Source: Williamsia soli (GTDB taxonomy: Bacteria > Actinomycetota > Actinomycetes > Mycobacteriales > Mycobacteriaceae). Taken from it: a stretch of 45,200 bases of DNA. The stretch lies in contig NZ_JAFRDR010000018.1 of NCBI RefSeq assembly GCF_017377795.1, positions 1 through 45,200 on the forward strand, read 5' to 3'. Made by a program: the position numbers and the translations under genes. Numbering within the stretch: position 1 is the first letter of the stretch; every line of letters starts with the position of its first letter. Positions 11,381-40,814 of the stretch are shown here, one piece after another. The notes under the pieces are model-generated. The model saw only the letters and a program-made list of their open reading frames with translations. It searched no databases and had not been told where the DNA came from.

Positions 11381-11396
11381 ACCAATCGCTTGCTTA
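11381..11396. promoter_or_regulatory. KstR2-type operator, cyclase/ADP-forming synthetase divergent gap
   Basis: The core CAATCGCTTG (11383-11392) is followed by CTT. It differs by one base from the CAAGCGCTTG consensus seen elsewhere in the window. It lies in the 104-base gap between two divergent genes, so it could control both. The following bases (AAATAGTGC) match those downstream of the regulator's own site at 39945-39954. Confidence 0.6.
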
Positions 11397-11426
11397 AATA
11401 GTGCTTTCAAGAAGGGAACCACCACG

Positions 11427-13601
11427 ATGCCAACCACAACGGACCCCGGGGTCGACGTCGACCCGGTGCTGCGCCAGGGTGCCACCACCGCCGACGGCCG
11501 AGTCACAATTGCGGAACATGCGGTGAAGGAACTGCTGCGTAACAACGGCGTCGATGTGCCGCGCGGCATCACCTTCACGCATTCACCGGAAGCCGCCGCT
11601 GCCACACGGGGTCTCACTGAACCCCTTGTGCTCAAGGCATTCGGGCCCGGCCTGCTGCACAAGAGCGATGTGGGTGGGGTGAAACTGGGGCTGACCAGGC
11701 AGCAGATCCCGGCCGCGGTGGACGACATGCGCGCCCACCTGACAGCTGTCGGCATCACCCCTGACGGGTTCCTGGTCGAAGAACAGCATGCCGGCGGTAT
11801 CGAACTGATCGTCGGGGTCGTGCGCGACAGTACCTTTGGCCATGTCCTCCTACTCGGCCTCGGCGGGATTGCCACCGAACTGCTCAACCTGTCAGCGGTA
11901 CGGGTGGTACCGCTGTCACGGTCCGACGCCGAAGAGCTCGTCGACACGTTCCCGGGTGCGCCGCTACTCAAGGGGGCCCGCGGCACCGACGTGATCGACC
12001 GCGACGCCCTGGTCAACGCTCTCCTGGCGATCGCCGGCCCGGAGGGACTGGTGAACCGGATCGGTCCAGCCCTGTCGGAGTTCGAGTGCAACCCAGTTGT
12101 CGTGACCACGACCGGCGCCTCGGCCCTCGATGCCCGGCTCCTCATCGAAAAGTCTGTCGTCGACGGCAATCCGGAACGGACGGCCACCGATTTCGCGGCC
12201 CTTTTCGCGCCCTCGTCGATTGCGATCGCCGGCGCATCAGGATCGAAATCGACGTTCGGCAACAGGTTTCTCGCCGCGTACCGCCAGGTCGGCTGGACCG
12301 ACGGACTGTACGCACTGCACCCCTCCGCGCAGCAAATTGACGGGGTGCCCGCCTATCCCGACTTCACCGCGATGCCCACCGTGCCGGACTACCTGGTCGT
12401 CGCAGTCCCTGCTTCGGTCACCCCGTCGGTGGTTTCGCAAGCAGCTCGAGCCGGCGTCCGTTTCATCCATGTGATCACCGGAGGGTTCGCCGAGATGGGC
12501 GCCGCTGGCCTGCTCCTCCAAGAGCAATTGGGCTCCGCCACAGACGGTTCGGACGCCAGAATCCTCGGACCCAATTGTCTCGGCGTCTACTCCCCGCGGG
12601 GACGTCAGGTCTTCACCCTCGGTGCGCCCGAAGAGGCCGGCGCAGTGTCCGTCGTATCTCAGAGCGGCGGCCTGTCGGGCGACATGATCACCGTCGGTGC
12701 ACAACGCGGCATCCGATACTCCAAACTGGTCAGCATCGGGAACGCGATCGACGTCACGCAGGCCGACTTGGTCGACTGGCTCGTCGATGACCCGGACACC
12801 GAGGTCATCGGGATCTACCTCGAGGGAGCACGGGACGGCGTACGACTCCGCAATGCTCTTCGCCGCGCAGACGGCGTGAAGCCCGTGGTCATGTTGCGGG
12901 GCGGGGCCAGCGAGCAGGGCTCCACCGCGGTCAGTTCGCATACCGGATCCATGGCGAGCAGCTCGAAGGTGTGGGATGCGGTGAGTTCGTCGACCGGAAC
13001 CCACCAGGTGCCCTCACTCGAGACGTTCCTGTCCTGCCTGACGTATCTGCAGCAGTATCGGCATGCACAGCAGGCAGTTTCATCCAGCGGCGTGCTGGTC
13101 ATCGGACTCGGCGGTGGCGCCTCCGTGCTCGCCACGGACGCTTGCGACCGCGCAGGACTCGCCGTGACCCCCCTGCACGAAGGGCTCAAGGCGTCGCTCC
13201 GCGAGCGTGGCTTCGGAGCGGGGACCAGCGTCGCCAATCCACTCGAAGTGCCCGTCGGGCCGACATCGAGCCCGTCAATTCTGGCCGATGTGTTGCGCGT
13301 CGTTCTGGTCGACACCGAACAGAGCTATGCCGATGTCCTCATCCACCTGAACGTCGCCGCCTATTACAACTACGGAACCGCGGGTGTCGTTCCCCTGATC
13401 GAGTCGCTACGAGCCGTGATCGATGCGCGGTTTGGCGTCCGAATTGCGGTGGTACTCCGCAATTCAGATGTCGCGCCCGCTGCGGACGGTGAGATGCTCA
13501 TCGACTTCATCAGAAGCGGTCGCCTTCCGGTGTTCCGCAGCTTTGACGAAGCGACGGCCGCGATCGCATCGGCGCAGAACTTCGACGACCGTCGCTTGTA
13601 G
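11427..13601 (+). CDS. ADP-forming acyl-CoA synthetase (acetyl-CoA synthetase/feruloyl-CoA synthetase type, fused)
   Basis: A 724-residue NDP-forming acyl-CoA ligase. The N-terminal part (about 1-235) is an ATP-grasp domain with HKSDVGG at 78-84. A CoA-binding Rossmann domain follows from about residue 253 (SSIAIAGASG), then two succinyl-CoA-ligase-like domains. SQSGGLSGD is one conserved loop, and SSHTGS carries His505, the candidate phosphohistidine. The ATP-grasp-first order is a permuted form of the family. It would join an acid to CoA with ATP giving ADP, and is a CoA-activating route separate from the AMP-forming ligases here. The ATG at 11427 has AAGAAGGGA upstream. It is a single-gene unit under a KstR2-like site and ends at a strong bidirectional hairpin. 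Confidence 0.88.
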   Translation: MPTTTDPGVDVDPVLRQGATTADGRVTIAEHAVKELLRNNGVDVPRGITFTHSPEAAAATRGLTEPLVLKAFGPGLLHKSDVGGVKLGLTRQQIPAAVDDMRAHLTAVGITPDGFLVEEQHAGGIELIVGVVRDSTFGHVLLLGLGGIATELLNLSAVRVVPLSRSDAEELVDTFPGAPLLKGARGTDVIDRDALVNALLAIAGPEGLVNRIGPALSEFECNPVVVTTTGASALDARLLIEKSVVDGNPERTATDFAALFAPSSIAIAGASGSKSTFGNRFLAAYRQVGWTDGLYALHPSAQQIDGVPAYPDFTAMPTVPDYLVVAVPASVTPSVVSQAARAGVRFIHVITGGFAEMGAAGLLLQEQLGSATDGSDARILGPNCLGVYSPRGRQVFTLGAPEEAGAVSVVSQSGGLSGDMITVGAQRGIRYSKLVSIGNAIDVTQADLVDWLVDDPDTEVIGIYLEGARDGVRLRNALRRADGVKPVVMLRGGASEQGSTAVSSHTGSMASSSKVWDAVSSSTGTHQVPSLETFLSCLTYLQQYRHAQQAVSSSGVLVIGLGGGASVLATDACDRAGLAVTPLHEGLKASLRERGFGAGTSVANPLEVPVGPTSSPSILADVLRVVLVDTEQSYADVLIHLNVAAYYNYGTAGVVPLIESLRAVIDARFGVRIAVVLRNSDVAPAADGEMLIDFIRSGRLPVFRSFDEATAAIASAQNFDDRRL

Positions 13602-13609
13602 AGCGTACT

Positions 13610-13660
13610 CAGCACGAACTCGGGGCCCGTCAGAGACGGGGCCCCGAGTTCGTCGTGCTG
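13610..13660. terminator. Strong hairpin, bidirectional terminator between convergent genes
   Basis: The arms pair CAGCACGA with TCGTGCTG (8 bp) and ACTCGGGGCCC with GGGCCCGAGT-type sequence (about 11 bp). A 3-base bulge separates the two stems, and the apical loop is short around CAGAG. It lies 8 bases after the stop of the ADP-forming synthetase and 15 bases after the stop of the opposing MFS gene, so it can serve both strands. No T-tract follows, which is usual for high-GC actinobacteria. Confidence 0.75.
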
Positions 13661-13675
13661 ACGATCAGTTGAAGA

Positions 13676-15193
13676 TCAGTGCACGGCCGCTACATCGCCA
13701 CCGGTTCGCACGTTCCGAACACCCTGGACACCTCCGTGCGGAATCAGGAAGGTCACAAGGAAGCTCACCACAGCACATATGCCAGCTATGGCGTACGCGA
13801 TCGTGTAGCCGTCACTGGTGTAGAAGGCACCGACGGAGGAGACGATCAGATGACCGGCGAGCACGCCGAACACGATCTGAATCAACATGGACGTACCGAG
13901 GTTCTGCGCAACGTTGGCAATTGCCGCGCTGATCCCCTGCTTCTCCGGCGGGACCGCCTGGATCACCAGGTTGGGAAGACCACCGTAGGTTGCGCCCATA
14001 CCGGCTCCGAACAGGACCAGCGCCACGGCGACATGCCAGGACTCCGAATGCCACAGCGCAAGGCTTCCCGCACCCAAAGCCAGCAAGATACAACCGATCC
14101 GAACCGGCACCCGGATACCCCAACGCCTCGCCATGCTGCCGCACAGCAGGCCGGACACCACCATCGCGGTACCCAACGGAACCAGGTAGACCGCCACACC
14201 CATTGCGTCGGTACCGAATCCGTAGGTTCCGCCGATCTCGCGAGGCGTCTGCACCATGCTCGGAACGATGGACGAGACTATCCCGGCAGTGGCATAGATG
14301 GTCCCCCCGACGAGCACTGTCGTCCAGACGGGCCGACTTTTGAGCAACGGTATTTCGATCAGCGGATCGGAGAATCGGCTATCCCATTTCAACCAGGCAA
14401 CCATGCAGACGACTCCGAGGACCATGAAGGCAAAAAAGGTGATCGAGGTCCAGCCCCATTTGTTGGCTTCGCCCAGTCCGTAGATGATGAACGCGCCGCC
14501 CGCGCCGAGTAGCAGAGCACCTACCCAGTCCAGCTTGCTCTTGACGCGCAGCGGCGACTCCGGCACGAACAGCACCGCGCCGACGAGGCACACAGCGAGA
14601 TAGATCGCGACAAACCAGAAAATCGACACTGCACCGTAATTGTCGATGAGCCAGCCCGCGAGGAGCGGCGCGAAAATGAACGTGGCGCCAAAGCCGGTGA
14701 ACGTCACAGTCGCCGCGAAGGCAATCAGCTTCTTCGGGAATATGTCCCGAATCAGCGAATAGCCGAGAGCTGGTGCGATGAACATCAGACCCTGTAGGCC
14801 GCGGCCGAGTAGGAAGATTTCGTAGGTCGGGGCCATTGCGGAGACAACCGCACCGACGGCTGACAGTGCGCTGATGGTGATGAGTACCAGCCGCTTGCCC
14901 TTGAGATCGGCAAGTTTGCCGATGAAGGCCATCGCCACCGCCGACACCAAGGTCGGGATGGTGATGACCCAGCCGAGGTTGTCGGCCTCGAACTTCGCCC
15001 CGATACCGGGCAAAGCCGTGGCCACCAGGTTGTATGAGAACGCCGTGAGTTCGCCGAGCATGACGATCACGAACAGCGCGAGGAACAACTTGGGGGTCCA
15101 CCCCCTGCCGTCGTCCTCATCGGTCGACAGATCGACTCCGGGCGGTTGAGTGTCCTTGGCGTCTTGTGATCTCGGTGACGATTCTGCGGTCAT
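13676..15193 (-). CDS. MFS transporter, 14-helix EmrB/QacA-like
   Basis: A 505-residue membrane transporter with an N-terminal cytoplasmic region rich in charged residues and many hydrophobic segments. Motif A appears as GKLADLKGKR. The start is taken as the ATG at 15191-15193 because AGGAG lies 5 bases upstream; a GTG two codons earlier is possible. It is paralogous to the transporter at 4779-6242. Two KstR2-type palindromes lie 56-96 bases upstream, so it probably belongs to the large regulon and moves a substrate or an intermediate. It is downstream of, and codirectional with, the lactonase gene, but has its own promoter region and a shared terminator hairpin at its 3' end. Confidence 0.9.
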   Translation of the reverse strand: MTAESSPRSQDAKDTQPPGVDLSTDEDDGRGWTPKLFLALFVIVMLGELTAFSYNLVATALPGIGAKFEADNLGWVITIPTLVSAVAMAFIGKLADLKGKRLVLITISALSAVGAVVSAMAPTYEIFLLGRGLQGLMFIAPALGYSLIRDIFPKKLIAFAATVTFTGFGATFIFAPLLAGWLIDNYGAVSIFWFVAIYLAVCLVGAVLFVPESPLRVKSKLDWVGALLLGAGGAFIIYGLGEANKWGWTSITFFAFMVLGVVCMVAWLKWDSRFSDPLIEIPLLKSRPVWTTVLVGGTIYATAGIVSSIVPSMVQTPREIGGTYGFGTDAMGVAVYLVPLGTAMVVSGLLCGSMARRWGIRVPVRIGCILLALGAGSLALWHSESWHVAVALVLFGAGMGATYGGLPNLVIQAVPPEKQGISAAIANVAQNLGTSMLIQIVFGVLAGHLIVSSVGAFYTSDGYTIAYAIAGICAVVSFLVTFLIPHGGVQGVRNVRTGGDVAAVH

Positions 15194-15245
15194 ATGCACT
15201 CCTGGATGGAAGGTCGCCCGAGTGTGGCGTGGACCACACTGTATT

Positions 15246-15263
15246 TGAGCAAGCGCATGTTCG
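15246..15263. promoter_or_regulatory. KstR2-type operator, proximal to the MFS gene
   Basis: The core CAAGCGCATG (15250-15259) is preceded by TTGAG. One base departs from CAAGCGCTTG. It lies 57 bases upstream of the MFS ATG and 29 bases from a second, similar site. Paired sites suggest tight control of this transporter. Confidence 0.5.
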
Positions 15264-15274
15264 CAAGATCTAGT

Positions 15275-15292
15275 TGAGCAATTGCTTGTTAT
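15275..15292. promoter_or_regulatory. KstR2-type operator, distal to the MFS gene
   Basis: The core CAATTGCTTG (15279-15288) sits within TTGAGCAATTGCTTGTTA, whose outer arms GAGCAA and GCTTG keep the motif. Its centre is 29 bp from the site at 15250-15259. Both lie between the lactonase gene end (15319) and the MFS start. Confidence 0.5.
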
Positions 15293-15318
15293 TCTGGCCT
15301 GGCCGCTCTCGTCGCCTG

Positions 15319-16314
15319 TCAGTAGCCACCTTGTACCCCGAATATCCGTTGCGGGTTCTCGATGAGCATTGTGTCGATATCACCCTGCTCCACACCGCAT
15401 TTCAGTAGAGCAGGTACCACGTCCTCGGCGATGTGCGTCCATTTCCACCGGGGGTTCAAATGCCGCCGGCGGACTGGATCGGACATGTCGGAAAAGCATG
15501 AGGTGTCGTGGGAGAGCACCATCTTCGATGCGTAGCCACGGCGGCACATCTCGGCAACGATTTCGACGCGCTTGTCGAAACTGACCGTCTCGAGCCCAAA
15601 TCGGTCCATACCGAGGTACGAGCCGCGATCAGCCAACGTCTGTAGGTACTCGTAATCGTCGGTATCGCCGGAGTGTCCGATCACCACCCTGCTCAGGTCG
15701 ACGCCCTCGTCCGCGAACACCTGCTGTTGATCGAGCCCACGGCGCAGCCCGGAGTGGGTGTGGGTCGTGATCGGCACCCCGGTTTCCCGGTGCGCGAACG
15801 CGACCGAGCGTAGAACCCGTTCGACGTCTTTGGTCAGCCCGGCCTCGTCGGTCACGCATTTGAGGATCGATGCCCGCGCGGACGTCCCGGTCATGCCTTC
15901 GGTGATGTCGCGGACGAAGAACTCGGCCAGTCGGTCAGGGCCGCCGGCCGGCGTACCCGGCCCCCGATAGTGGAAGTACACGGGCAATTCGCTCAGTACG
16001 TAAGCACCGGTCGCGAGGATGATGTTGACCTCGGACTGCTCGGCGACCTTCACCACTCGTGGGATATACCGTCCGAGTCCGATCACCGTCAGGTCGACCA
16101 AAGTGTCGAAACCGGCCGCCTTCAGGTCCGACAGCTTGCGGACTGCGTCAGCAATCTGTTCGTCCTCACTCCACTGCTCCGGATAGTCCGGCCAATTCTG
16201 TTGCACTTCAGGGCTCGTCACGAAGATGTGCTCATGCATCAACGTGCGACCCAGATCAGCGATAGGCGCCGCTCCCGTCGCAGTGTCCACGGTGGCGCTG
16301 GTCGTCGTCGTCAT
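15319..16314 (-). CDS. Phosphotriesterase-family amidohydrolase, probable lactonase
   Basis: A 331-residue TIM-barrel metallohydrolase with all metal ligands of the phosphotriesterase family: His27 and His29 (MHEHI), the carboxylatable Lys152 (ILKCVTDE), His185 (TTHTH), His214 (IGHSG) and Asp270 (LSHDTSC). Most natural members without phosphotriester substrates are lactonases (PLLs), so lactone hydrolysis is the best guess. The start is the ATG at 16312-16314 with AAGGAG 6 bases upstream. An in-frame extension to 16419 would run into the upstream SDR and is not supported. It is the second gene after the SDR at 16352, under the site at 17202. It could open lactones formed by luciferase-type monooxygenases of the cluster. 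Confidence 0.87.
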   Translation of the reverse strand: MTTTTSATVDTATGAAPIADLGRTLMHEHIFVTSPEVQQNWPDYPEQWSEDEQIADAVRKLSDLKAAGFDTLVDLTVIGLGRYIPRVVKVAEQSEVNIILATGAYVLSELPVYFHYRGPGTPAGGPDRLAEFFVRDITEGMTGTSARASILKCVTDEAGLTKDVERVLRSVAFAHRETGVPITTHTHSGLRRGLDQQQVFADEGVDLSRVVIGHSGDTDDYEYLQTLADRGSYLGMDRFGLETVSFDKRVEIVAEMCRRGYASKMVLSHDTSCFSDMSDPVRRRHLNPRWKWTHIAEDVVPALLKCGVEQGDIDTMLIENPQRIFGVQGGY

Positions 16315-16351
16315 ACCCGTCTCCTTGTCCTCGACAACTGCCTGTAGCCGT

Positions 16352-17161
16352 TCACACCGGTGCCTGCGGATGAACGATGTCGTTCTGGGCGTGCCACGGT
16401 TGATGGGCGTGAAAACCACCGTCGACGGTGATCGTCTGCCCCGTGATGTATTTCGCCCCGGGACCAGCGAGAAAACAGATCACCGAGGCGAGATCCTCTG
16501 TCTCACCGAAGTCGTTCACCAGCAAATTGGCGTCGTAGGCTGCGAGCTTCTCCGACGAGAGATTCGTCTTCGCGGTGGGGCTCAGGATCAATCCACTGGC
16601 CACCGAGTTGACACGGATCCCCCGCTTACCATGTGAGGTCGCCACAGATCGGGTGAGCGAATACTTTGCTGCCATCGACGCGGCGTAGGCAACATGGACG
16701 GTGTCGCCTCGTAACCCCGACGTGGAGCCCACATTCACGATCGACCCGCCGCCACCGCGCAGCATCACCGGAATCGCATCTCGGATCGCCCAGACCGCAC
16801 CATAGAAGTTCACGGCGAAGGTTCGGTCCCATGCTCCGTCGGGTGTGCTCTCGACGTTGATGTCCGATTCTTCGACCCCTCCGTACGCGACTGCGTTGTT
16901 CACCAGCACGTCGATGCGCCCGTACGCAGCCTCGGCACTCTTGATCAGCCGGTTCACGTCACCGGCGACTCCGACGTCCGCTACAACCGCAGTCACGTCG
17001 AACCCTTCGTCGGACAGCTCTGCGCGAACGCTCTCGAGCTTTTCTTCCTGGATGTCGTTGATCACCAAGCTGTTGCCTGCTCGGCCGAGTTGCTGCGCAA
17101 CCGTTCGACCCACACCTTGCGCAGCTCCGGTGATCACCGCGACCTGGTTGTCCTTCGTCAT
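16352..17161 (-). CDS. SDR-family protein with Lys-to-Met change in YxxxK
   Basis: A 269-residue classical SDR fold. The cofactor motif TGAAQGVG is at 11-18, followed by NNA at 88-90 and VGSTSG near 144-149. The active-site tetrad reads Tyr159-Ala-Ala-Ser-Met163, so the usual catalytic Lys is Met; the next lysine is three residues later. Activity as an ordinary dehydrogenase is therefore doubtful, although NAD(P) binding looks intact. The ATG at 17159-17161 has AGAGAGGA upstream. It is the first gene of a leftward unit with the lactonase, and diverges from the SDR at 17253 across a perfect KstR2-type palindrome. It may use another base, act on an unusual reaction, or be a non-catalytic partner. 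Confidence 0.85.
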   Translation of the reverse strand: MTKDNQVAVITGAAQGVGRTVAQQLGRAGNSLVINDIQEEKLESVRAELSDEGFDVTAVVADVGVAGDVNRLIKSAEAAYGRIDVLVNNAVAYGGVEESDINVESTPDGAWDRTFAVNFYGAVWAIRDAIPVMLRGGGGSIVNVGSTSGLRGDTVHVAYAASMAAKYSLTRSVATSHGKRGIRVNSVASGLILSPTAKTNLSSEKLAAYDANLLVNDFGETEDLASVICFLAGPGAKYITGQTITVDGGFHAHQPWHAQNDIVHPQAPV

Positions 17162-17197
17162 GTGATTCCTCTCTGATTGATTCCGCTCAATCTAACT

Positions 17198-17216
17198 TAC
17201 CCAAGCGCTTGCTTGG
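17198..17216. promoter_or_regulatory. KstR2-type operator between two divergent SDR genes
   Basis: The perfect core CAAGCGCTTG (17202-17211) lies within CCAAGCGCTTGCTTGG (17201-17216). The longer sequence is itself an inverted repeat of CCAAGC and GCTTGG around GCTT, so two overlapping symmetry axes are present. It is 40 bases from the leftward SDR ATG and 36 bases from the rightward one, so it can control both. Confidence 0.75.
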
Positions 17217-17252
17217 TATGCTCTTCGAGACCATCGACGAAAGGCAATTGAC

Positions 17253-18023
17253 ATGCTCGACTTCGACACCCGCTCCGGCGCGACCCTCGTCGCGGGCGGA
17301 ACGGGCGGTATCGGTAGTGCCATCTGCCGCACCTTGGCCGCGCGCGGTAGCTCGGTGGTGTTCACCTACCGCAGCAATCAGCAAGCTGCCGAGACACTTT
17401 GCACCGATCTGCGGGCAGCCGGCGTGAAGGCGGAAGCAGTTCGCGTCGACCTCAACGACCCGGACGTGTGTGCCAGGGTGGCGCGTGACGTCGTCGATGC
17501 ACACGGCGGGATCCACACCCTGGTCTACGCAGCGGGCCCGCACGTGCCGATGATCCATATGAGCCGGGTCAGCCCGGTGCAGTTTCGCCAGCAGATCGAC
17601 ACCGATGTACTCGGCTTCTTCAACCTGGTTCATCCAGTCCTGCCGATACTTCGTGAGGCCGGAGGGAGCATCGTCGCCGTCACCACGGCCGCCACGCGGC
17701 GATTCCCGGTACGGGACGGTCTGTCGTCGGTGCCCAAAGGGGCAGTCGAATCCCTCGTCAAAGCACTTGCAGCAGAGGAAGGCCGGTTCGGAATCCGAGC
17801 GAACTGCGTTGGGCCGGGCATGCTGACCGACGGAATGGCGACCCGGTTGATCGACTCGGGCGATCTGGACGAACGGGCGTTGGATGTGGCTCGAGCGAAC
17901 ATTCCGTTGCGCCGTTTCGGTGTCGCACAGGACATCGCCGAAGCAGTCGCATTCCTGGCGTCCGATCGCGCGGGTTTCATCTCGGGCCAGACCTTGGACG
18001 TCGACGGCGGATACGGGGTATGA
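17253..18023 (+). CDS. SDR-family protein (FabG-like fold) lacking the catalytic Tyr
   Basis: A 256-residue SDR with a normal glycine-rich motif (AGGTGGIG, about 14-21) and the C-terminal SGQTLDVDGGYG segment typical of FabG-like enzymes. The YxxxK motif is replaced by Ser158-Ser-Val-Pro-Lys162, so the catalytic Tyr is Ser. The Ser strand reads VTTAAT rather than the usual NxSS, and NNAG is YAAG. The fold and dinucleotide site look preserved while standard catalysis does not. The ATG at 17253 has GAAAGG upstream. It is a single-gene rightward unit under the palindrome at 17202. It ends only 8 bases from the convergent SDR gene at 18032, with no visible terminator. Confidence 0.84.
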   Translation: MLDFDTRSGATLVAGGTGGIGSAICRTLAARGSSVVFTYRSNQQAAETLCTDLRAAGVKAEAVRVDLNDPDVCARVARDVVDAHGGIHTLVYAAGPHVPMIHMSRVSPVQFRQQIDTDVLGFFNLVHPVLPILREAGGSIVAVTTAATRRFPVRDGLSSVPKGAVESLVKALAAEEGRFGIRANCVGPGMLTDGMATRLIDSGDLDERALDVARANIPLRRFGVAQDIAEAVAFLASDRAGFISGQTLDVDGGYGV

Positions 18024-18031
18024 AGTCGGAC

Positions 18032-20669: not shown

Positions 20670-20692
20670 TCTGGCGTCCAATCTGTTGTCCG

Positions 20693-21676: not shown

Positions 21677-21679
21677 GCT

Positions 21680-23624: not shown

Positions 23625-23642
23625 TGCTCAAGCGCTTGTTTT
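23625..23642. promoter_or_regulatory. KstR2-type operator before the six-gene operon
   Basis: The perfect core CAAGCGCTTG (23629-23638) lies within TTTGCTCAAGCGCTTGTTTT. It is 22 bases upstream of the luciferase-like ATG at 23607, so it would overlap the promoter or transcription start. An adjacent TTGCTCATAAG may be a degenerate half-site. Confidence 0.75.
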
Positions 23643-26307: not shown

Positions 26308-26329
26308 TGTCTCTATCTCCTCAGAATCG

Positions 26330-29711: not shown

Positions 29712-29731
29712 AACCAAGCGCTTGCTTGGTT
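29712..29731. promoter_or_regulatory. KstR2-type operator before the ABC importer operon
   Basis: AACCAAGCGCTTGCTTGGTT is a perfect inverted repeat of 8-base arms around GCTT, and also contains the core CAAGCGCTTG (29715-29724). It is the longest and most symmetric copy in the window. It lies 15 bases upstream of the LivH-like GTG, where a bound repressor would block transcription initiation. Confidence 0.78.
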
Positions 29732-29816
29732 GATAAAGCCGAAGGTAGTGCGCGTCACAGAGAAAGTCAATTCATGCGCGTCCGACCGGAAGATCGCGAA
29801 TGTTTGTGAATGACAA

Positions 29817-29833: not shown

Positions 29834-29846
29834 CACCCGACGGCGT

Positions 29847-31316: not shown

Positions 31317-31342
31317 GAAGGGCCTTTCGGTGATGCGGAAAC

Positions 31343-33765: not shown

Positions 33766-35303
33766 GCTTGCCTCCTTTGGGCTTCTGCGGTGGTCACCGC
33801 GGCGCCCGATCCCGGGTAGCCGCCACCGCCGTATTGCTCGTCGAGCAGGTCGTAGTCGGCGGCATAACCTAGCTTCGGAATTGCCTCGACGAAGATCACC
33901 GAGCGAGGTTTCTTGTACGACGCAGCATGGGATCGAACGTGATCGATGACGCCGGCCTCATCGACTACAGCGTCTTTGTCGGCCACCACCACGGCCACAA
34001 CCGACTGCCCCCATCGAGAATCAGGCACTCCGATCACCGCTGCGTCGAGAACTGCCGGATGTCCTGTCAGCACGCGCTCGACGTCGGCTGGGTAAATGTT
34101 CTCTCCCCCGGACTTGATCATCCGTGCCTTCGGACCGATGAACGTGATGGTGCCGTCCGCTTCCCGTCGGCCGAGATCGTTGGTGTGGTACCAACCATCT
34201 CGAAATCGCTCACTGTTCAACTGGGGTCGGTTGAAGTATCCGTCGAAGAGGTGCGCGCCTCGGGCGACCATCTCCCCCGTCTGTCCGGCAGGTACCTCCA
34301 CACCGTCGTCATCCAGGATGCGGATCTGACACAGCGGGCTTGATCGGCCGTGTGTTCCGATCCCACCCGATCCGAGTGCGTGGAAGGTCAGCATCCCCCC
34401 GACCTCGGTCTGACCATATCCCGCGTTGGACAGGCCCCAGGGGCTGTCATCAGGAGTGATCATCTGATCCCACTCACTACCGACGGGACTGAACCGTAGG
34501 CTGGAGAGGTCGAACCGACGGTCCTGGTTCACCGCCACCATCTGTTCGATCATGAGCCCAAAGAGCATTGCACCAGTGCACTTCTCAGTATCGATGAGTC
34601 TGCAGGCAGACTCGGCATCGAACTGGGCCATCATCACGTTGGTCCCGCCGAAGACCATCGCAGCGCAGGCAAACATCACCGTACCGATGTGGAACAAAGG
34701 TCCACTATTCAAGAAGACGAAGTTGTCGTCGACCCGCCGTTGCACCCCGAGAGACATCGCGTGCGATACCAAGGCGCGATGCGACAGCAGGGCGCCGTTC
34801 GGGCGGCCCTGGAAGGCAGCCGTATACAGCAGGAGCACTGGTTGTTCTCCGGTTACGAAATCAGGAAGCAGCCCGTTGGTCCCACTCTCGAGTAGCAACT
34901 CGTACTCGTCGTCTGCCCCGCTCCGGCTTGCTATCCACTCCGAGCCGGGCACCTTCCGGCCGTCGAACAGTGCCGGATCAAAGATCACAACGCGAGGTTC
35001 CAGATCGTCGAGCACGAACGAGATCTCATCGGGACTCTGGCGCCAGTTGATCGGGCAGAGCACCGCCCCTATCCGGCCTGCGGCGACCAACAGTTCCAGG
35101 ACCCGATGAGAGTTCGCGCCCAGCCACAGAATTCGGTCTCCGGCAGTCACGCCTCGATGGCCCAGAGCGCGGGCGAGGCGCTCGGTACGGCCCCCGAACT
35201 CGTCATACGTGAAACGGCGGTCTCCGTCGACCAGGGCGAGCGCGCCCGCCCGGCCGCGACGGTTCTCGTCGACGACATCGGGTAGTGACAATGACGTGTG
35301 CAC
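33762..35303 (-). CDS. Acyl-CoA-synthetase homologue with degenerate ATP motif and no C-terminal catalytic lysine
   Basis: A 513-residue ANL-fold protein. Where active ligases have YTSGTTGxPKG, it has YTAAFQGRPNGALLSH (about 160-175), with Asn169 in place of the lysine and the Ser/Thr-rich loop gone. The A5 region (GYGQTEVGG) and the hinge are kept. At the end, the usual PKTxxGKxxR is IPKLGYAADYDLLDEQ, so the adenylation lysine is also missing. The start is GTG at 35301-35303 with AGGAAGG 7 bases upstream, better placed than the in-frame GTG at 35324. It is coupled to the intact ligase at 32185. It may bind acyl-adenylate or CoA without making it, act as a partner subunit, or catalyse another reaction. 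Confidence 0.82.
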   Translation of the reverse strand: MHTSLSLPDVVDENRRGRAGALALVDGDRRFTYDEFGGRTERLARALGHRGVTAGDRILWLGANSHRVLELLVAAGRIGAVLCPINWRQSPDEISFVLDDLEPRVVIFDPALFDGRKVPGSEWIASRSGADDEYELLLESGTNGLLPDFVTGEQPVLLLYTAAFQGRPNGALLSHRALVSHAMSLGVQRRVDDNFVFLNSGPLFHIGTVMFACAAMVFGGTNVMMAQFDAESACRLIDTEKCTGAMLFGLMIEQMVAVNQDRRFDLSSLRFSPVGSEWDQMITPDDSPWGLSNAGYGQTEVGGMLTFHALGSGGIGTHGRSSPLCQIRILDDDGVEVPAGQTGEMVARGAHLFDGYFNRPQLNSERFRDGWYHTNDLGRREADGTITFIGPKARMIKSGGENIYPADVERVLTGHPAVLDAAVIGVPDSRWGQSVVAVVVADKDAVVDEAGVIDHVRSHAASYKKPRSVIFVEAIPKLGYAADYDLLDEQYGGGGYPGSGAAVTTAEAQRRQA

Positions 35304-35333
35304 GGGCAGTCCTTCCTCACACACTGGGGACGG

Positions 35334-36419
35334 TCACCGGAAGGCCGGCATGACTTCTTTGGCGAAGAACGTGATCGCCTTCGACATCTCGTCGAACGGA
35401 ATGTGCCGAGTGCTGCCGAAATCGCACATGAGGTGGTTGTAGCCGAACTCTTGAAGCATCGCGACCTGTCCGATGACTCGTTTGGGGTCACCGATGACCT
35501 CGAGTTGATCCCATCGGAAGTCGTTGCCGACCTCGCCGCCCTTGAGGTAACGGCCTTCCCAGAACTCGAAGCCCTTTGCCACGGCGCCGGTCTTGGAGTC
35601 AATCGGTGCACTCTTCTCGTTGAAGATGCGGGACCGATCGAAAGCCGCCTCGAAGTGGTCCTGGTCTGCCTTTGCCTGTTCGACGGTCGGCGCCAACCAG
35701 ACCGATCGGGAGACGACGAGATCAGCCTCGGCCGTGTTGTGACCGGCCTCGCCCGCGATGCGGTGCCACGTCTCGGCTGCACCCTTGATCTTCTTGAATG
35801 GGGCTGCCGGGTCGGCGAGGATCGGCAATCCGCGCTTCGCATATCTCTCCACGGTTTCCGGGCTGACCGCAGCTACGTGGAGCGGAGGGTAAGGCTTCTG
35901 GAGCGGACGGGGAGACAGGGCGGCATCGCCGGTCCTGTAGTACTTGCCCTCGTGCTGGTAGGTGTCGTTGGTGAACAGCCCGGTGATCACGTCCAGTCCT
36001 TCATCGAACCGGTCGCGCGCCTCGGACAGATCCATTGCGTATCCGTCGAATTCGATGCTCTGGTAGCCGCGTCCGATACCCAGCTCGAGTCGCCCGTTCG
36101 ACATCACATCGAGTTGTGCGGCCTGTTCGGCGACGTGGACCGGATTGTGCAGTGGCAACACCACGACGCCGGTTCCCAGCCTGAGGTTCTCGGTGCGTGC
36201 AGCGAGGTAGCCAAGCATCGTGAAAATGCTGGGTACGGTTCCGTAGTCCCGGAAGTGGTGCTCCGAGACCCACACTCCGTCGAAGCCGAGTTCTTCGAGC
36301 AGGTCCGCAACCCGGATGTTGTAGTCGTAGACCTCTTTGATCGTGTTGCTGCGATCGGGTCGATGGAACAGTAGGAAAGCCGAAAACTTCATCGGCCGTT
36401 GATCTAGAGAATCGCTCAT
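35334..36419 (-). CDS. Luciferase-like monooxygenase (LuxA-type)
   Basis: A 361-residue luciferase-fold protein. The segments FDGVWVSEHHF, VLPLHNPVHVAEQAAQLDVMSNGRLELGIGRGYQ and DGYAMD are typical of FMN-dependent bacterial-luciferase-type monooxygenases. The start is the ATG at 36417-36419 (MSDSLDQRPMKFS) with AAAGGTGAG upstream; a GTG three codons before is possible. It lies 30 bases before the degenerate ligase and 39 bases after an F420-type LLM gene on the same strand. Oxygenation of a ketone or hydroxylation are both possible; no flavin reductase gene is visible nearby. It is the third gene of the 38181-29847 operon. Confidence 0.86.
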   Translation of the reverse strand: MSDSLDQRPMKFSAFLLFHRPDRSNTIKEVYDYNIRVADLLEELGFDGVWVSEHHFRDYGTVPSIFTMLGYLAARTENLRLGTGVVVLPLHNPVHVAEQAAQLDVMSNGRLELGIGRGYQSIEFDGYAMDLSEARDRFDEGLDVITGLFTNDTYQHEGKYYRTGDAALSPRPLQKPYPPLHVAAVSPETVERYAKRGLPILADPAAPFKKIKGAAETWHRIAGEAGHNTAEADLVVSRSVWLAPTVEQAKADQDHFEAAFDRSRIFNEKSAPIDSKTGAVAKGFEFWEGRYLKGGEVGNDFRWDQLEVIGDPKRVIGQVAMLQEFGYNHLMCDFGSTRHIPFDEMSKAITFFAKEVMPAFR

Positions 36420-36458
36420 ATCTCTCACCTTTCGACAGCCGACGGCTCGTTGCGTCGC

Positions 36459-37373
36459 CTAGCCATTGATTACTCGTTTTCCGAACTCTTCGATCGACCG
36501 AATGAGGGAATCTCTGTCGTCCCCCGAGAACGGCACGGATAGCCAGTCGACCCCGACATCGGCGTAGGAATCGATCTGCGATCCCAACGTGTCGAAATCG
36601 GCCACGGTTGGGGATTCGGTCATCCGCATCCCGAACGGGACGAAACACACGTCCGGTGTCGGCTTCTGCGCATCACCCGCGATGCCGCGTAGGAACTCGA
36701 TTCGGCCCGCCAGGTCGTCCATCGATTCCAGGGCGGGAGTGCGGGTGAGTTTTGACGCAGCTGCCGGTTGCGGCATGGGCATCCAGCCTTGGCCGAACTC
36801 CACCACACGGCGCATCGCGCGTTTGCTGTTGCCACCGAACCAAATCGGCGGATGCGGTCTCTGGGCCGGTGCAGGACGCATCGTGTGACCGTGAACCTGG
36901 AGCGACGTGGTGGTCAGGTCGACCGATCCCCCACTCCACGCCTCTTTGATGAGCCGCAGCGCTTCGTCGGTCCGTTCGCCTCGGTCTTCGTACGACATTC
37001 CCAGCGCTGCGAACTCCGACCGGAGGTAACCCACCGCCGTCCCGAAGATGACTCGTCCACCCGAGAGCACATCGAGGCTCGCCACCGCCCTCGCGGTCAG
37101 GAACGGGTTTCGATACGGCAGCACGAACACGTTCGTCAGCAGCTTCACGGTTGTGGTGCGAGCCGCCGCGAAGGACAACGCCACCATCGGATCCAATGCT
37201 TGATGGCCACCGTGCGCCAGCCACTTGTCCTGCGGGAAAGGGTGGTCCGTCACCGAGACGGCATCGAACCCGTTCTCTTCAGCGGCCTGCGCGACCTCGG
37301 CGACCGCGTCGGCGGTCAGGAACTCCGCCTGCCGCTCGACCTGATCGGTGGGTAAGCCGAGTACGTAGCGCAT
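36459..37373 (-). CDS. Luciferase-like F420-dependent oxidoreductase (Rv2161c-type)
   Basis: A 304-residue luciferase-fold protein. MRYVLGLPTDQ, the VTDHPFP motif after beta-2, and ASLDVLSGGRVIFGTAVGYLRSEF fit the actinobacterial F420 group named after Rv2161c (TIGR03619). It would reduce or oxidise an intermediate with F420. The ATG is at 37371-37373, 43 bases after the NIPSNAP-like gene and 39 bases before the LuxA-type gene. It is the second gene of the seven-gene operon. The related protein at 42978-43844 shares the PDH/TDH motif pattern. Confidence 0.86.
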   Translation of the reverse strand: MRYVLGLPTDQVERQAEFLTADAVAEVAQAAEENGFDAVSVTDHPFPQDKWLAHGGHQALDPMVALSFAAARTTTVKLLTNVFVLPYRNPFLTARAVASLDVLSGGRVIFGTAVGYLRSEFAALGMSYEDRGERTDEALRLIKEAWSGGSVDLTTTSLQVHGHTMRPAPAQRPHPPIWFGGNSKRAMRRVVEFGQGWMPMPQPAAASKLTRTPALESMDDLAGRIEFLRGIAGDAQKPTPDVCFVPFGMRMTESPTVADFDTLGSQIDSYADVGVDWLSVPFSGDDRDSLIRSIEEFGKRVING

Positions 37374-37416
37374 GTCAGTCCTCCGGGTTCGGTTCGTTCA
37401 GGTTCGCCACCACCAC

Positions 37417-38181
37417 TCAGCGCGGGGCCAGTACCGATCCTGGGAAAGGAGCGAGAAGCGTTTCCCGCCAGGGTCCTTCGAGATACTGACGGGCGGTTTT
37501 GCGCCAATCGACCAGCCGCTGATCAGCCTTAGCCTCGGCGTCGAGACCGAGGGCACCGTCGAAGGCCCGCTGCGTCTCGAGATGTGAATCGAGGTCGACG
37601 CCCCAGAACGTCACCACCTCGGAGTCACTCAGGAGTACCTCGTACAGGCCGACGAGCTTGTGCCCGTGGTCGGCGAGAATGGGTGCTCGCTCCTCGCGAA
37701 CCGCAGCCAAGTAGTCCAGGGCCGCACCTGGACGCACCGTGGCGACCTCGTGCAGGAAGAAAGGCGAGGTGTATTCGTCGGCGCGTAGCTGTTGTAGATC
37801 CGGGGTGCCGTTGACCGCACCCATCGGCCGGGAGAATGCCTTGTGCCGCAGATCGTCGATCGCCGACAGGAACAGTTGCGGTTTGACACCCTCGTAGATC
37901 TCCAGTTGCTGGCGCCAGCCGCCATCCCAGCCACCATGGCAATCCCACAGGGTCACCGCCTTGAACTGTTCGTGTCCGGTGATTCCGATCGCGTAGAACG
38001 CCCCGACCAGATCTATAGCTCGAGAACGTACCGAAAGGCCCTGCGTGAGTTCCGCTTCCCCACTTCCCCGCTTCTCGTCTTCCTTCTTGTAGTTGACCAG
38101 CCATTGCAGGTATTCGCGCGGGTTGGTCGAGTTCATCGGATGGAAGTAGACCTCTTCCATGAGGTAGATGCCACGAGCCAC
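37417..38181 (-). CDS. NIPSNAP-like protein with two tandem dimeric alpha/beta-barrel repeats
   Basis: A 254-residue protein with no recognised catalytic motif. It reads as two diverged copies of one unit. Each has a strand like (I/F)-(Y/F)-L-x-E followed by P....YL..V, then LVG.(F/Y)Y and a W-containing strand (about residues 5-105 and 145-230). This is the pattern of NIPSNAP/EthD-like dimeric alpha/beta-barrel proteins. The start is GTG at 38179-38181 with AAAGGA 7 bases upstream. The frame extends to 38295 but would then overlap the promoter region near the palindrome at 38301. It is the first gene of the seven-gene operon. It may be a small-molecule-binding or isomerase-like enzyme; the function is unknown. 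Confidence 0.6.
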   Translation of the reverse strand: MARGIYLMEEVYFHPMNSTNPREYLQWLVNYKKEDEKRGSGEAELTQGLSVRSRAIDLVGAFYAIGITGHEQFKAVTLWDCHGGWDGGWRQQLEIYEGVKPQLFLSAIDDLRHKAFSRPMGAVNGTPDLQQLRADEYTSPFFLHEVATVRPGAALDYLAAVREERAPILADHGHKLVGLYEVLLSDSEVVTFWGVDLDSHLETQRAFDGALGLDAEAKADQRLVDWRKTARQYLEGPWRETLLAPFPGSVLAPR

Positions 38182-38297
38182 GTCTGAGTCCTTTCGCATG
38201 AAAATGCTGTTCGGTTCTGGCACGGCCGCCACGTTCACGAGGGCTGACCCTCGACGAAAGGCTTTGACAGTGGCGTCCGGCCGTCCTAACGTCAATG

Positions 38298-38314
38298 TAG
38301 CAAGCGATTGCTCA
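38298..38314. promoter_or_regulatory. KstR2-type operator in the divergent NIPSNAP/aldolase gap
   Basis: The core CAAGCGATTG (38301-38310) lies within AGCAAGCGATTGCT, whose arms AGCAA and TTGCT are perfect. It is 120 bases upstream of the leftward seven-gene operon and 35 bases upstream of the aldolase GTG, so it can control both. The 3' flank (CTCAAATTAGA) resembles that at 40801. Confidence 0.75.
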
Positions 38315-38344
38315 AATTAGAAGCTCTCGCGGGAAAGAGGCACA

Positions 38345-39532
38345 GTGAGCCGACCATCAACCCCGCCCGCCACGTCCCCGATGCGGGATCGAACTGCGGT
38401 TGTCGGGGTAGGAAGAACCGCGTTCAGCAAGAACTCGGGTGTGAGCACCTTGAGCCTTGCGCTGCAGGCCATTGCGGCAGCTGTCGCCGACGCCGGACTG
38501 ACTCTCCGCGATGTCGACGGACTCGTCACGCATTCCGTGGGTGATTCGGTTCCCGCTGCGGCAGTCGCACACAGTCTCGGTGTCGACGACCCACACTTTC
38601 TGCTAGACATCACCGGCGGCGGCAGCATGTCGGTCGCCACGCTGGGAGCCGCCGCGATGGCGATCGCGACGGGTCAGGCGGAGACCGTCGTCTGCTGGCG
38701 TTCACTCAATGCCAGATCGGAGTTCCGCATGGGCGGCACGGGACGATCGGCGCCGACACTGGTCGAGTTCCAATACCAGGTCCCCTACGGTCTCATCGCA
38801 CCCCCGCAGCAGTACGCGATTGTCGCAAGTGCCTACATGTCCCGCTCCGGGGCTGTCGCCGAGGACCTCGGTCGCGTCGCCATCACCCAGCGGGGGCATG
38901 CCGAACACAATCCGCGAGCGATGATGCGCGAACCGCTCGACATGGACACCTACCTGGGATCTCGTTTCATCAGTGAGCCCCTTCGGCTCTTCGACTGCTG
39001 CCTCGAGACCGACGCCGGGGTTGCGGTGGTCGTCACCTCAGCGGAACGCGCCGTCGACTTACGCCACCCACCGGTGCTCATCAGCGGGGTTACCACCGGC
39101 GGCGGACACAGCCTCTTCTCCGGCTCTCGGACCGACTACTCGACAAGCGCCGCCGCCGAGATGGCACCGCGGCTCTACAGCGCGGCCGGTGTCAGTGCCG
39201 ACGAGATCGACGTCGCCGAGTTGTATGACGCATTCACGCCTCTGGTCTTGATGCAGCTGGAGGACTACGGGCTCGCCCGTAGGGGCGAAGCAGCCGAGTT
39301 CGTCTCGTCGGGAGCCACAGCAGTCGGTGGGAGCATTCCGGTGAACACCCACGGCGGTCACCTGTCCGAGGGATACGCGCACGGCCTCAATCACGTCGCC
39401 GAAGCGGTTGACCAACTCCGTGGCCGCGCCGCCGGCCTCCAGGTCGAGGGCGCACAGACAGCGCTCTGTACCGGCCAGCCCGGCTATGTCTCCGGGGTCA
39501 CGTCAGCCGCAATCCTGAGGGCGGCGCGATGA
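38345..39532 (+). CDS. Ltp2-like thiolase-fold aldolase (lipid-transfer protein/thiolase)
   Basis: A 395-residue thiolase-superfamily protein. The position of the nucleophilic thiolase Cys holds GGGSMS (91-96), so ordinary thiolysis is unlikely. Tyr294 (YDAFT) and Tyr344 (EGYAHG) coincide with the tyrosines reported for the steroid side-chain aldolase Ltp2, as far as I recall their positions. That enzyme performs a retro-aldol cleavage of a beta-hydroxyacyl-CoA together with a DUF35 partner. The next gene encodes a DUF35 protein and overlaps it by 4 bases (ATGA), which strongly supports the pairing. The start is GTG at 38345 with AAGAGG upstream. The substrate would be a branched beta-hydroxyacyl-CoA that releases a ketone or aldehyde. 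Confidence 0.84.
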   Translation: MSRPSTPPATSPMRDRTAVVGVGRTAFSKNSGVSTLSLALQAIAAAVADAGLTLRDVDGLVTHSVGDSVPAAAVAHSLGVDDPHFLLDITGGGSMSVATLGAAAMAIATGQAETVVCWRSLNARSEFRMGGTGRSAPTLVEFQYQVPYGLIAPPQQYAIVASAYMSRSGAVAEDLGRVAITQRGHAEHNPRAMMREPLDMDTYLGSRFISEPLRLFDCCLETDAGVAVVVTSAERAVDLRHPPVLISGVTTGGGHSLFSGSRTDYSTSAAAEMAPRLYSAAGVSADEIDVAELYDAFTPLVLMQLEDYGLARRGEAAEFVSSGATAVGGSIPVNTHGGHLSEGYAHGLNHVAEAVDQLRGRAAGLQVEGAQTALCTGQPGYVSGVTSAAILRAAR

Positions 39533-39948
39533 CGACCGCGTTCGGGGACCGGGACAGCCGCGAGTGGTGGGAGGCCCTGGGTCGCGGCGAACTACTGGTG
39601 CAGCAGTGCGACAACTGCGGTGTGCCGCGCTGGGCGCCACGTGCGATGTGCAACGGATGCGGATCCTTCAGCTGGCACTGGGTGCAGACAAGCGGGCAAG
39701 GGCGCGTCATCGGCTGGACGGTGAGCCACCGCTCGTTCATTCCTGGGCTGGAAGCGCCCTATACAGTAGTACTGGTTCGGCTCGATCACGGTGAGAACCT
39801 GATGATCCCGGGCGGATGGGCAGAGGACCCCGCGGGTTCCGATCTCGCGGCTGAGCTATCCGTTGTCGCGGAGTTCATCGAGAACACCGACTCTGACGGC
39901 CCGCCGACTGTACTGACGTGGCGGAGAGCGACACCGGTAACAACCTAA
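39529..39948 (+). CDS. DUF35 OB-fold zinc-ribbon protein, aldolase partner
   Basis: A 139-residue protein of the DUF35 group. A rubredoxin-like zinc ribbon has Cys27, Cys30, Cys41 and Cys44 (CDNC...CNGC), followed by an OB-fold acyl-CoA-binding domain. In the Ltp2-ChsH2 steroid system such a domain docks the thiolase-fold aldolase and is needed for its activity. Its start overlaps the aldolase stop (ATGA at 39529-39532). No MaoC-like hydratase is fused or adjacent, unlike the ChsH1-ChsH2 arrangement. Its last codons overlap the operator of the following regulator gene. Confidence 0.85.
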   Translation: MTTAFGDRDSREWWEALGRGELLVQQCDNCGVPRWAPRAMCNGCGSFSWHWVQTSGQGRVIGWTVSHRSFIPGLEAPYTVVLVRLDHGENLMIPGGWAEDPAGSDLAAELSVVAEFIENTDSDGPPTVLTWRRATPVTT

Positions 39949-39958
39949 CGCTTGCTTC
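39943..39958. promoter_or_regulatory. KstR2-type operator over the regulator's own promoter
   Basis: The core CTAACGCTTG (39945-39954) is a weaker copy, followed by CTTCAATAGTGC. A -10-like CATAAT lies at 39966-39971 and the GTG start at 39978, so transcription would start at or very near the start codon. The site overlaps the expected -35 region and the end of the DUF35 gene. Autorepression is the simple reading. Confidence 0.55.
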
Positions 39959-39977
39959 AATAGTGCATAATCGACGT

Positions 39978-40673
39978 GTGGCATCGTCAAAGAAGACCCC
40001 TGAACCGGCGACCCCGGTATTGCCGCGCCGTGGGCGCAAGTCGGTCAACGGCGACAGCATGTCGGAGCGCCGCCAGGGGATGCTGGAGATCGCCGCCGAC
40101 CTGTTCGCAGAGCAGGGGTTTCGCTCCACGACCGTCCGGCAGATCGGTGATGCCGCCGGCGTACTGTCCGGCAGTCTCTACCACCACTTCGACTCCAAAG
40201 AAGCAATCGTCGACGTCATCTTGTCGGAGTACTTCACGAGCCTGCTCGCCGCCTACCGCAAGATCATCGCCGACGGCGCCTCGCCACGCGACACCCTTCG
40301 AGAACTGGTGCGGGCCGCATTTCATTCACTCGGCGACCATCGAGCCGCGATCACGGTGGTGCAGAACGAACGGAACTATCTGACGCAGTTCCCCCGGTTC
40401 TCCTATGTTGCCGACGCCGAGGCGGAGGTTCGGGAGATGTGGACCACCGTGATCGAGGACGGTAAGAAATCCGGCGTGTTCCGGCGGGACGTGGACACAC
40501 CCATCACTTACCGCTTCATCCGCGATTCGCTCTGGGTGGCCGTCCGATGGTTCACCCCCAGCGGCCGCCTGACCGCCGATGAACTTGCCGATCAATACCT
40601 CGAGTTGATGATGCGTGGACTCGAAGACCCCTCCGCGATTGCCAATTCGAATAGGCCGCTATTCTCCGGATAG
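39978..40673 (+). CDS. KstR2-like TetR-family regulator
   Basis: A 231-residue TetR protein. The helix-turn-helix is TTVRQIGDAAGVLSGSLYHHFDSKEAI (about 51-77). The C-terminal half keeps segments shared with mycobacterial KstR2, from memory of that sequence: PRFSYVADAE, MWTTVIEDGKKSGVFR, YRFIRDSLWVAVRWF and LTADELADQYL. KstR2 represses genes for degradation of a steroid-derived bicyclic acid and is released by its CoA thioester. A similar cyclic acyl-CoA may be the effector here. The start is GTG at 39978, six bases after a CATAAT box, so the transcript is probably leaderless; the frame extends upstream into the operator and the DUF35 gene. It is the best candidate to bind the CAAGCGCTTG sites in the window. 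Confidence 0.88.
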   Translation: MASSKKTPEPATPVLPRRGRKSVNGDSMSERRQGMLEIAADLFAEQGFRSTTVRQIGDAAGVLSGSLYHHFDSKEAIVDVILSEYFTSLLAAYRKIIADGASPRDTLRELVRAAFHSLGDHRAAITVVQNERNYLTQFPRFSYVADAEAEVREMWTTVIEDGKKSGVFRRDVDTPITYRFIRDSLWVAVRWFTPSGRLTADELADQYLELMMRGLEDPSAIANSNRPLFSG

Positions 40674-40798
40674 GCACCGCGCGCGTTTCTGCACCCTGAC
40701 GACCCGCTCACCACGGTCGACGCGGCACACCCGACCGGCTGCACGTCGTTGATTTTCTGGAAGTCTTGTTTGTCGCCTCGTTCTGACGTTATTGTTTG

Positions 40799-40814
40799 AC
40801 CAAGCGATTGCTCA
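40799..40814. promoter_or_regulatory. KstR2-type operator before the ligase-to-fgd operon
   Basis: The core CAAGCGATTG (40801-40810) lies within CCAAGCGATTGCTCAA. It is 20 bases upstream of the ligase ATG at 40830 and downstream of the regulator stop. The 3' flank (CTCAACTGAGA) parallels that of the site at 38301. It would control the rightward operon that ends beyond the window with fgd. Confidence 0.75.

Follow-up and report, generated by a model that had tools for sequence, protein, structure and literature searches.

Which regulator controls the catabolic genes on a 45,200-base contig of Williamsia soli, and what does their pathway degrade? The contig, analysed as a whole and called the window here (contig C9 of a 6.07-Mb genome), carries nine palindromes of the CAAGCG(C/A)TTG type and, at 39978-40673, the gene for a TetR-family regulator that we call TetRK. 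Its relative KstR2 is known as a dedicated switch of steroid C/D-ring breakdown, the genes of which are called HIP genes below. We consider it probable that the palindromes are operators of TetRK, and that TetRK represses an accessory block which degrades a polycyclic isoprenoid and is released by an acyl-CoA.

Palindromic sites and their conservation

A pattern search located the nine cores exactly where a preliminary description of the window had placed them. Six (11383, 17202, 23629, 29715, 38301 and 40801) fit CAAGCG(C/A)TTG without mismatch on one or both strands, and those at 15250, 15279 and 39945 have a single mismatch. The operator also agrees, as had been claimed, with the KstR2 motif AnCAAGnnCTTGnT as given in the available text of PMC3068626. 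With up to one mismatch allowed, the two strands of the window held 27 matches to CAAGCGNTTG, where 9.7 would be expected, and none of 100 shuffles reached 27. Every one of the nine sites remained in the window's top nine with a leave-one-out 20-bp matrix. The full matrix scored them at 18.2 to 28.1, followed by a shifted copy of the 29715 site (8.8) and a match at 7.4; in 200 Markov sequences, matches scoring at least 18 averaged 0.02 against nine observed, the matrix having been trained on the same nine. Eight sites lie wholly within the intergenic 4.5% of the window (binomial p 1e-10), as delimited with manually trimmed gene starts (the gene ending at 22426, for example, was started at 23588 instead of 23631). 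The statement that no copy occurs inside a gene holds for these eight but not for the site at 39945, which covers the last codons and the stop (39946-39948) of the DUF35 gene 39529-39948.

In the whole genome, CAAGCGNTTGNT without mismatch occurs at 22 distinct places, of which six are on the window contig (0.74% of the genome, p 1e-8), three in the first 14 kb of contig C20 and one at the genome's own kstR2. The matches fetched from elsewhere were mostly inside predicted genes. A reversed control pattern gave a similar raw count (24 strand matches versus 27), and the unusual property is therefore the clustering, not the genome total.

The block most likely continues leftward onto C20, since window positions 1..127 (minus strand) are identical to the first 127 bases of C20 in reverse, both at contig ends. 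The same 127 bases recur at C20:15452, within a 1.2-kb repeat that includes a gene for an acyl-CoA dehydrogenase, and the join is therefore likely rather than proven. The two copies of this stretch (C20:1-1213 and 15452-16664) are 99.6% identical and 15.4 kb apart. Four operators on C20 (2032, 2099, 11783 and 13823) scored 20 to 25 with the window matrix and face genes for a short-chain dehydrogenase/reductase (SDR), hydantoinase A/B, a luciferase-like monooxygenase (LLM), a MaoC-type hydratase and a thiolase. Two of these operators lie within automatically called open reading frames (ORFs) that are too long; DNA and homology put them upstream of later starts. The nine sites of the proposed 30-kb regulon stand, but the regulon is larger than the window.

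Operator conservation was scored as 9 or more (or 8 or more) of 10 fixed bases within 301 bp upstream. Among 81 TetR loci, which include KstR2-type rows and two genomes twice, 56 reached 9 and 72 reached 8, compared with 2% and 12% of random stretches. Upstream of LLM35, the LLM encoded at 35334-36428, an operator was found in 14 of 15 loci; the likely miss is Amycolatopsis circi, where the operator precedes the next gene upstream. In a sample of 394 genomes of the class, searched regardless of TetRK, all eight LLM35 orthologs outside this genome had an operator (seven with 9 and one with 8 of the 10 bases), and these came from five genera of one family. The window thiolase had one in 3/3 loci and the C20 thiolase in 14/19, two of the misses (L070 and L189) being the same genome. 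The genome's own HIP genes are presumed, by position, to be FadA6, EchA20, IpdA and IpdC. A guide to their naming was the gene table of PMC5380842, in its available part. At 9 or more bases, operon-internal genes gave no operator (ligase 0/11, IpdC 0/28, ipdA-position gene 0/27), while the HIP genes FadA6, SDR and EchA20 gave 18/26, 5/27 and 3/27, rising to 22, 20 and 9 at 8 or more.

TetRK and its relation to KstR2

TetRK has TetR_N and TetR_C_24 domains, and its best PDB matches by sequence are KstR2 structures. A fold search with its model (mean pLDDT 83) also ranked KstR2 first (4w97, E 5.6e-16), followed by 4w1u and 2ibd, again KstR2. The DNA-reading region LSGSLYHHFDSKE is nearly invariant in the TetRK and KstR2 groups, and TetRK is 47% identical to the KstR2 of its own genome (C11:761951). 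The ligand-domain motif YRFIRDxxW, in which we take the Arg and Trp to be HIP contacts in KstR2, is also retained: among the 79 rows scoring higher against TetRK than against KstR2, R and D occur in all and W in 76. This is motif KstR2-5 of PMC13176608. The Prosite-style signature KstR2-3 of the same paper is absent from the aligned TetRK stretch; it is equally absent from the aligned KstR2 of Rhodococcus jostii RHA1 and from the own C11 KstR2, and is thus not discriminating.

In a tree of 111 rows, TetRK fell in a clade of its own (77 rows, support 100/92), apart from RHA1 KstR2 (2ibd) and the own KstR2. The program warned about one long row (L134) in this tree; without it the TetRK clade comprised 27 of 47 rows with support 100/99, and the order of the other KstR2-like rows was weak (49/78). 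The separate clade in both trees rules out a plain KstR2. The earlier label of a KstR2-like TetR is accordingly sound for the fold, the DNA-reading region and the best solved matches, but the clade is separate from characterised KstR2. One genome of the window's family (G030) has a KstR2 nearly that of R. jostii RHA1, which suggests that the host belongs among the Rhodococcus-like actinobacteria. A Rhodococcus metagenome-assembled genome (MAG; L027) was given a cyanobacterial family by the tree program, which we took as a labelling error.

The TetRK type was found in none of eight other members of the genus that were searched, each of which has one KstR2-type match. At E 1e-65 or better, six of 350 other genomes of the family gave matches. 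Five belong to one genus (g6), with the TetRK relative inside an HIP cluster with operators in all five, and the sixth (G183) is KstR2-type. Two genomes of g6 (G067 and G389) searched for a second regulator had only one each. At the g6 loci L148, L150, L152, L154 and L157 the regulator accompanying the HIP cluster is of the TetRK clade, which appears to have replaced KstR2 there.

Among the matches listed in named genomes, the best 80 loci were compared over at most 10 kb on each side, and gene sets were called at an identity of at least 43%. Three Actinomadura loci (L039, L043 and L073), one of Nocardiopsis (L059) and one of Actinoallomurus (L098) combine LLM35, the PtmA2-like ligase, the cyclase-family hydrolase, the C20 SDR and the C20 thiolase, with operators at some genes of this shared set. 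In Nonomuraea guangzhouensis and a Streptosporangiaceae MAG, which have a single regulator each, one contig combines such a set with TetRK and HIP genes over ~46 kb and ~36 kb, respectively. A. circi retains LLM35 (80%), the gene at 37417-38295 (85%), the thiolase (74%) and DUF35 (47%); its divergent gap corresponding to that of window operator 7 likewise holds an operator. Searches for both regulators in 19 genomes found two in nine and one in ten; in each of the nine, one copy belongs to the TetRK clade and the other lies outside it. EchA20 occurred in 14/14 and LLM35 in 13/14 genomes of a chosen set, ten of which had been picked because LLM35 was seen in the locus. Among the other four, LLM35 was present in L047, L063 and L070 (the last two already showing a thiolase ortholog) and absent from L034.

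Gene content, proposed pathway and alternatives

Table 1. Predicted operators and genes of the window (positions in the 45,200-base contig).
Feature	Position	Strand	Remarks
Operator 1	11381..11394		AGCAAGCGATTGGT on minus strand; divergent gap between cyclase and ADP-forming-type acyl-CoA synthetase
Operator 2	15248..15261		Degenerate right half CATG; upstream of MFS gene 13676-15199
Operator 3	15277..15290		AACAAGCAATTGCT on minus strand; shares gap with operator 2
Operator 4	17200..17213		Divergent gap separating two SDR genes
Operator 5	23627..23640		Upstream of minus-strand run LLM-SDR-esterase-LLM-SDR-SDR
Operator 6	29713..29726		Upstream of Liv-type ABC importer genes
Operator 7	38299..38312		Divergent gap between minus-strand run (37417 down to 29847) and thiolase-DUF35 (plus)
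Operator 8	39943..39956		Upstream of regulator, overlaps DUF35 stop; weakest of nine
Operator 9	40799..40812		Upstream of ligase-SnoaL-LLM-SDR-LLM run
Cytochrome P450 and cyclase-family (PF04199) hydrolase	9080..11322	-	
ADP-forming-type acyl-CoA synthetase	11427..13601	+	
Major facilitator superfamily (MFS) transporter	13676..15199	-	
SDR and phosphotriesterase-family hydrolase	15319..17161	-	
SDR	17253..18023	+	
LLM, SDR, hormone-sensitive-lipase-type esterase, LLM, SDR, SDR	18032..23588	-	Second LLM above cut-off of F420-named TIGR03621
Branched-chain-amino-acid-type ATP-binding cassette (ABC) importer	25114..29697	-	Two permeases, two ATPases, binding protein
Aldehyde dehydrogenase	29847..31343	-	ORF to 31667; match begins at residue 127
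Mycofactocin-type SDR	31343..32188	-	TIGR03971, 291 bits against cut-off 300
Second acyl-CoA ligase	32185..33765	-	
Acyl-CoA ligase	33762..35324	-	Best solved relative PtmA2 (5upq)
LLM35	35334..36428	-	Bacterial-luciferase-like monooxygenase; conserved core pathway gene
LLM-family oxidoreductase	36459..37373	-	Above cut-off of F420-named TIGR03619
Protein without Pfam match at 1e-5	37417..38295	-	84-85% identical in A. circi
Thiolase-like protein	38345..39532	+	Best solved relative 6ok1 'Lipid-transfer protein', E 1.6e-85
DUF35/ChsH2-type zinc-ribbon and OB partner of thiolase	39529..39948	+	
TetR regulator TetRK	39978..40673	+	Sister of KstR2; PF17932/PF00440
Acyl-CoA ligase	40830..42497	+	Window's nearest relative of own FadD3 (38%)
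SnoaL-like, LLM, SDR, LLM	42494..45200	+	Last gene cut by contig end

The preliminary description had spoken of a different pathway with its own importer, ligases and redox enzymes. Those genes are present (Table 1), and the reading of a KstR2-like regulon serving a different pathway holds, but "different" understates the steroid link. In the proposed mechanism, TetRK would repress about 16 transcription units, as counted from gene order, on the 45-kb contig and the first ~14 kb of C20. It would be released by an HIP-CoA-like acyl-CoA intermediate, perhaps made by the adjacent FadD3-like ligase. The substrate, a steroid, secosteroid or terpenoid, may be imported by the block's importer, and the SDRs and P450 could turn alcohols into ketones. 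The LLMs, some of them flavin-dependent, may insert oxygen in the Baeyer-Villiger fashion. Bac_luciferase-family enzymes and a flavin reductase do occur in this one regulon across the window and C20: a flavin reductase (PF01613, C20:9048-9572) and a DHBP-synthase/GTP-cyclohydrolase protein ('RibBA') lie downstream of the C20 LLM on the same strand. The reductase may pair with the LLMs, and the two proteins could feed them. Esterase, phosphotriesterase-family and cyclase-family (lactonase-type) hydrolases would open the oxidised product, the acyl-CoA ligases would activate it with CoA, and the thiolase/DUF35 pair would cleave a carbon-carbon bond. The nearest solved relatives of the thiolase and of one ligase are 6ok1, which we take to be a steroid aldolase, and PtmA2, presumably a diterpenoid-related ligase. 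A polycyclic isoprenoid is the most likely substrate, with moderate confidence.

It is also conceivable, though rather unlikely, that the block degrades a non-steroid compound, such as a monoterpene or an alicyclic ketone, and that the regulator was merely recruited. Sets of SDR, Baeyer-Villiger-type, lactonase-type and ligase enzymes are also used by monoterpene ketone routes. Furthermore, as the preliminary description had it, the window contains no recognisable HIP target of KstR2: the own KstR2 lies amid FadD3, thiolase, enoyl-CoA hydratase and SDR genes, all above NCBIfam cut-offs, and beside a FabK-like gene below its cut-off, and no ortholog of the own HIP proteins was found in the window or in C20:1-20000. 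The best matches there were TetRK to KstR2 and, otherwise, the ligase 40830-42497 to FadD3. However, in several genera the regulator's clade is found within HIP clusters or flanked by HIP genes on one side and window-gene orthologs on the other, which makes a steroid or steroid-like substrate likelier than an unrelated one. The retained YRFIRDxxW motif, the FadD3-like ligase next to the regulator and the relatives of the thiolase and ligase named above likewise speak against a non-steroid compound. The pathway is probably steroid-like.

An explanation that we regard as improbable is that the sites are additional targets of the own C11 KstR2, with TetRK redundant or otherwise employed. The own KstR2 has nearly the same DNA-reading region, the core of the sites is the published KstR2 motif, as far as PMC3068626 is available, and the own HIP operators reach 16 to 20 with the window matrix. 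However, an operator stands at the start of the TetRK gene itself, and the eight searched members of the genus have KstR2 but no counterpart of TetRK. In eight of the nine two-regulator genomes LLM35 lies 3-48 kb from TetRK, and the ninth has no LLM35. The outer flanks also differ: half-sites of the window and C20 read TTGAn, with T outermost in 18/26, whereas those of the own HIP and published sites read CCWAn, with T outermost in 2/26 (p 8e-6, the half-sites and repeated published sites not being independent). We rejected a general separation of the two clades by their flanks, as LLM35 operators and some TetRK-linked HIP operators in relatives have CCAA-type flanks. The difference is therefore limited to this genome compared with the own HIP and published sites. 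We hypothesize that, within this genome and not as a clade rule, the flanking bases might insulate the two regulons.

Chance or structural palindromes that are not operators are highly improbable and were rejected: three of the nine sites are imperfect and the genome total is not above the reversed control, but the shuffles, the leave-one-out matrix, the Markov and gap statistics, the concentration on the window contig and C20, and the conservation upstream of orthologs, with operon-internal genes as negative controls, all speak for operators.

Several observations weigh against a TetRK-controlled pathway for a polycyclic isoprenoid. The operator at the regulator's own gene scored lowest of the nine, and the own KstR2, sharing the core operator, could bind the window sites. 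No curated name fixes the substrate, and most NCBIfam matches of window proteins are below cut-off. Two LLMs pass F420-named cut-offs, so that not all LLMs need be flavin-dependent or of the Baeyer-Villiger type. In relatives, the clusters share part of the block and not the importer, and the association of TetRK with LLMs is not general: among the 76 TetRK-type loci of the best 80 listed, only 12 have LLM35, 18 have EchA20 and 27 have neither gene set. The LLM35 operator there usually has G for A in its left half (AGCGAGCGCTTGGT). An operator within 301 bp upstream was found for 0/10 cyclase and 1/10 C20 SDR genes of relatives, both of which have one here, so that the regulon is only partly conserved as such; in L043, L186 and L189 the operator of the C20 SDR precedes the next gene upstream.

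A wider proposal can be made only tentatively. Actinobacteria might possess a second KstR2-type family that controls an undescribed LLM-based route for a polycyclic isoprenoid, in some lineages jointly with the HIP genes and in others, including this one, beside KstR2. Its ligand might then be KstR2's ring-C/D acyl-CoA or a homologous one, and the bases around a shared core operator would hold the two regulons apart.

Comparison with known systems and further observations

The KstR2 regulons of Mycobacterium smegmatis and R. jostii, as presented in the available text of PMC3068626 and PMC5380842, resemble the present one in TetR fold, core palindrome, autoregulation and divergent promoters, and in having acyl-CoA ligases and a thiolase among their targets. 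The KstR2 effector is HIP-CoA according to the accessible parts of PMC5380842 and PMC7807495. In contrast, the regulator here belongs to a sister clade, and its predicted targets are LLMs, an importer, SDRs and hydrolases rather than HIP orthologs. There are 13 operators here, compared with three per genome in the available text of PMC3068626, and the outer flanks are TTGA, not CCWA. Wide predicted KstR2-type regulons have a precedent: the accessible part of PMC7807495 reports KstR2 sites predicted in 29 operons of N. simplex.

An LLM enzyme that carries out Baeyer-Villiger oxidation of progesterone is described in the available text of PMC12239570, in the pdc progesterone cluster of the steroid degrader Caenibius tardaugens. 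There too, Baeyer-Villiger enzymes of the LLM and FMO types are encoded close to a TetR gene, and the window likewise has an FMO-type gene (2020-3927), but with no such operator beside it. The pdc cluster is small, belongs to another phylum and has TetR and LuxR regulators, and the accessible part of its description contains no KstR2-type operator. The window's thiolase-like gene followed by a ChsH2-like DUF35 gene resembles the Ltp2-ChsH2 type of steroid aldolase (6ok1). A literature search covering few subscription papers returned no report of a KstR2-like regulator, homolog or paralog, of KstR2 with a luciferase-like monooxygenase, or joining steroid degradation, Nonomuraea, Actinomadura and KstR2, and none on PtmA2, acyl-CoA synthetase and diterpenoid. 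With its shared core operator, other gene set and recurrence in HIP clusters, the sister family illustrates how an acyl-CoA sensor would have been reused. It directs attention to a so far uncharacterised catabolic route with LLMs in Streptosporangiales, Amycolatopsis and the genus of the window. KstR2 motif scans alone may mix two regulons.

The protein at 37417-38295 was present, among 351 genomes of the family, only in this genome (E 1e-60). By eye its product resembles dimeric alpha/beta-barrel (NIPSNAP-like) repeats, a resemblance unsupported by the model (pLDDT 39, not used). The P450 had no PDB match at 1e-60, and window positions 9000-33000 (24 of 45 kb) had no near match in a plasmid collection. 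Positions 254-8891 encode an FMO-type enzyme, a ligase, a TetR regulator, an MFS transporter, SDRs and an esterase; the matrix scan found none of these operators there, and the stretch is perhaps a neighbouring unit under its own TetR. The best PDB matches of its FMO-type gene are cyclohexanone and steroid monooxygenases. Apart from TetRK the window has two TetR genes, 24354-24983 and 4007-4606, neither with such an operator near its start among the matrix matches.

Between the operators at 15250 and 15279, a weak third palindrome (CAAGATCTAG, 15264-15273) is spaced 14-15 bases from each, and the three possibly form an array. Elsewhere in the genome, an intergenic site at C5:112463 (L209:10463) has a TCAA flank on one side and scored 22.5; the three flanking ORFs scanned gave no Pfam match. 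A KstR2-type site with CCTA/TTGG flanks at C23:317452 (L211:10452) lies near enoyl-CoA hydratase, acyl-CoA dehydrogenase and IclR-type genes and is a possible extra KstR2 target. A 98% copy of the LLM gene that is cut off at the window's right end (44738-45200) runs up to the right end of C10, a contig of 23,256 bases, and a repeat probably broke the assembly there.

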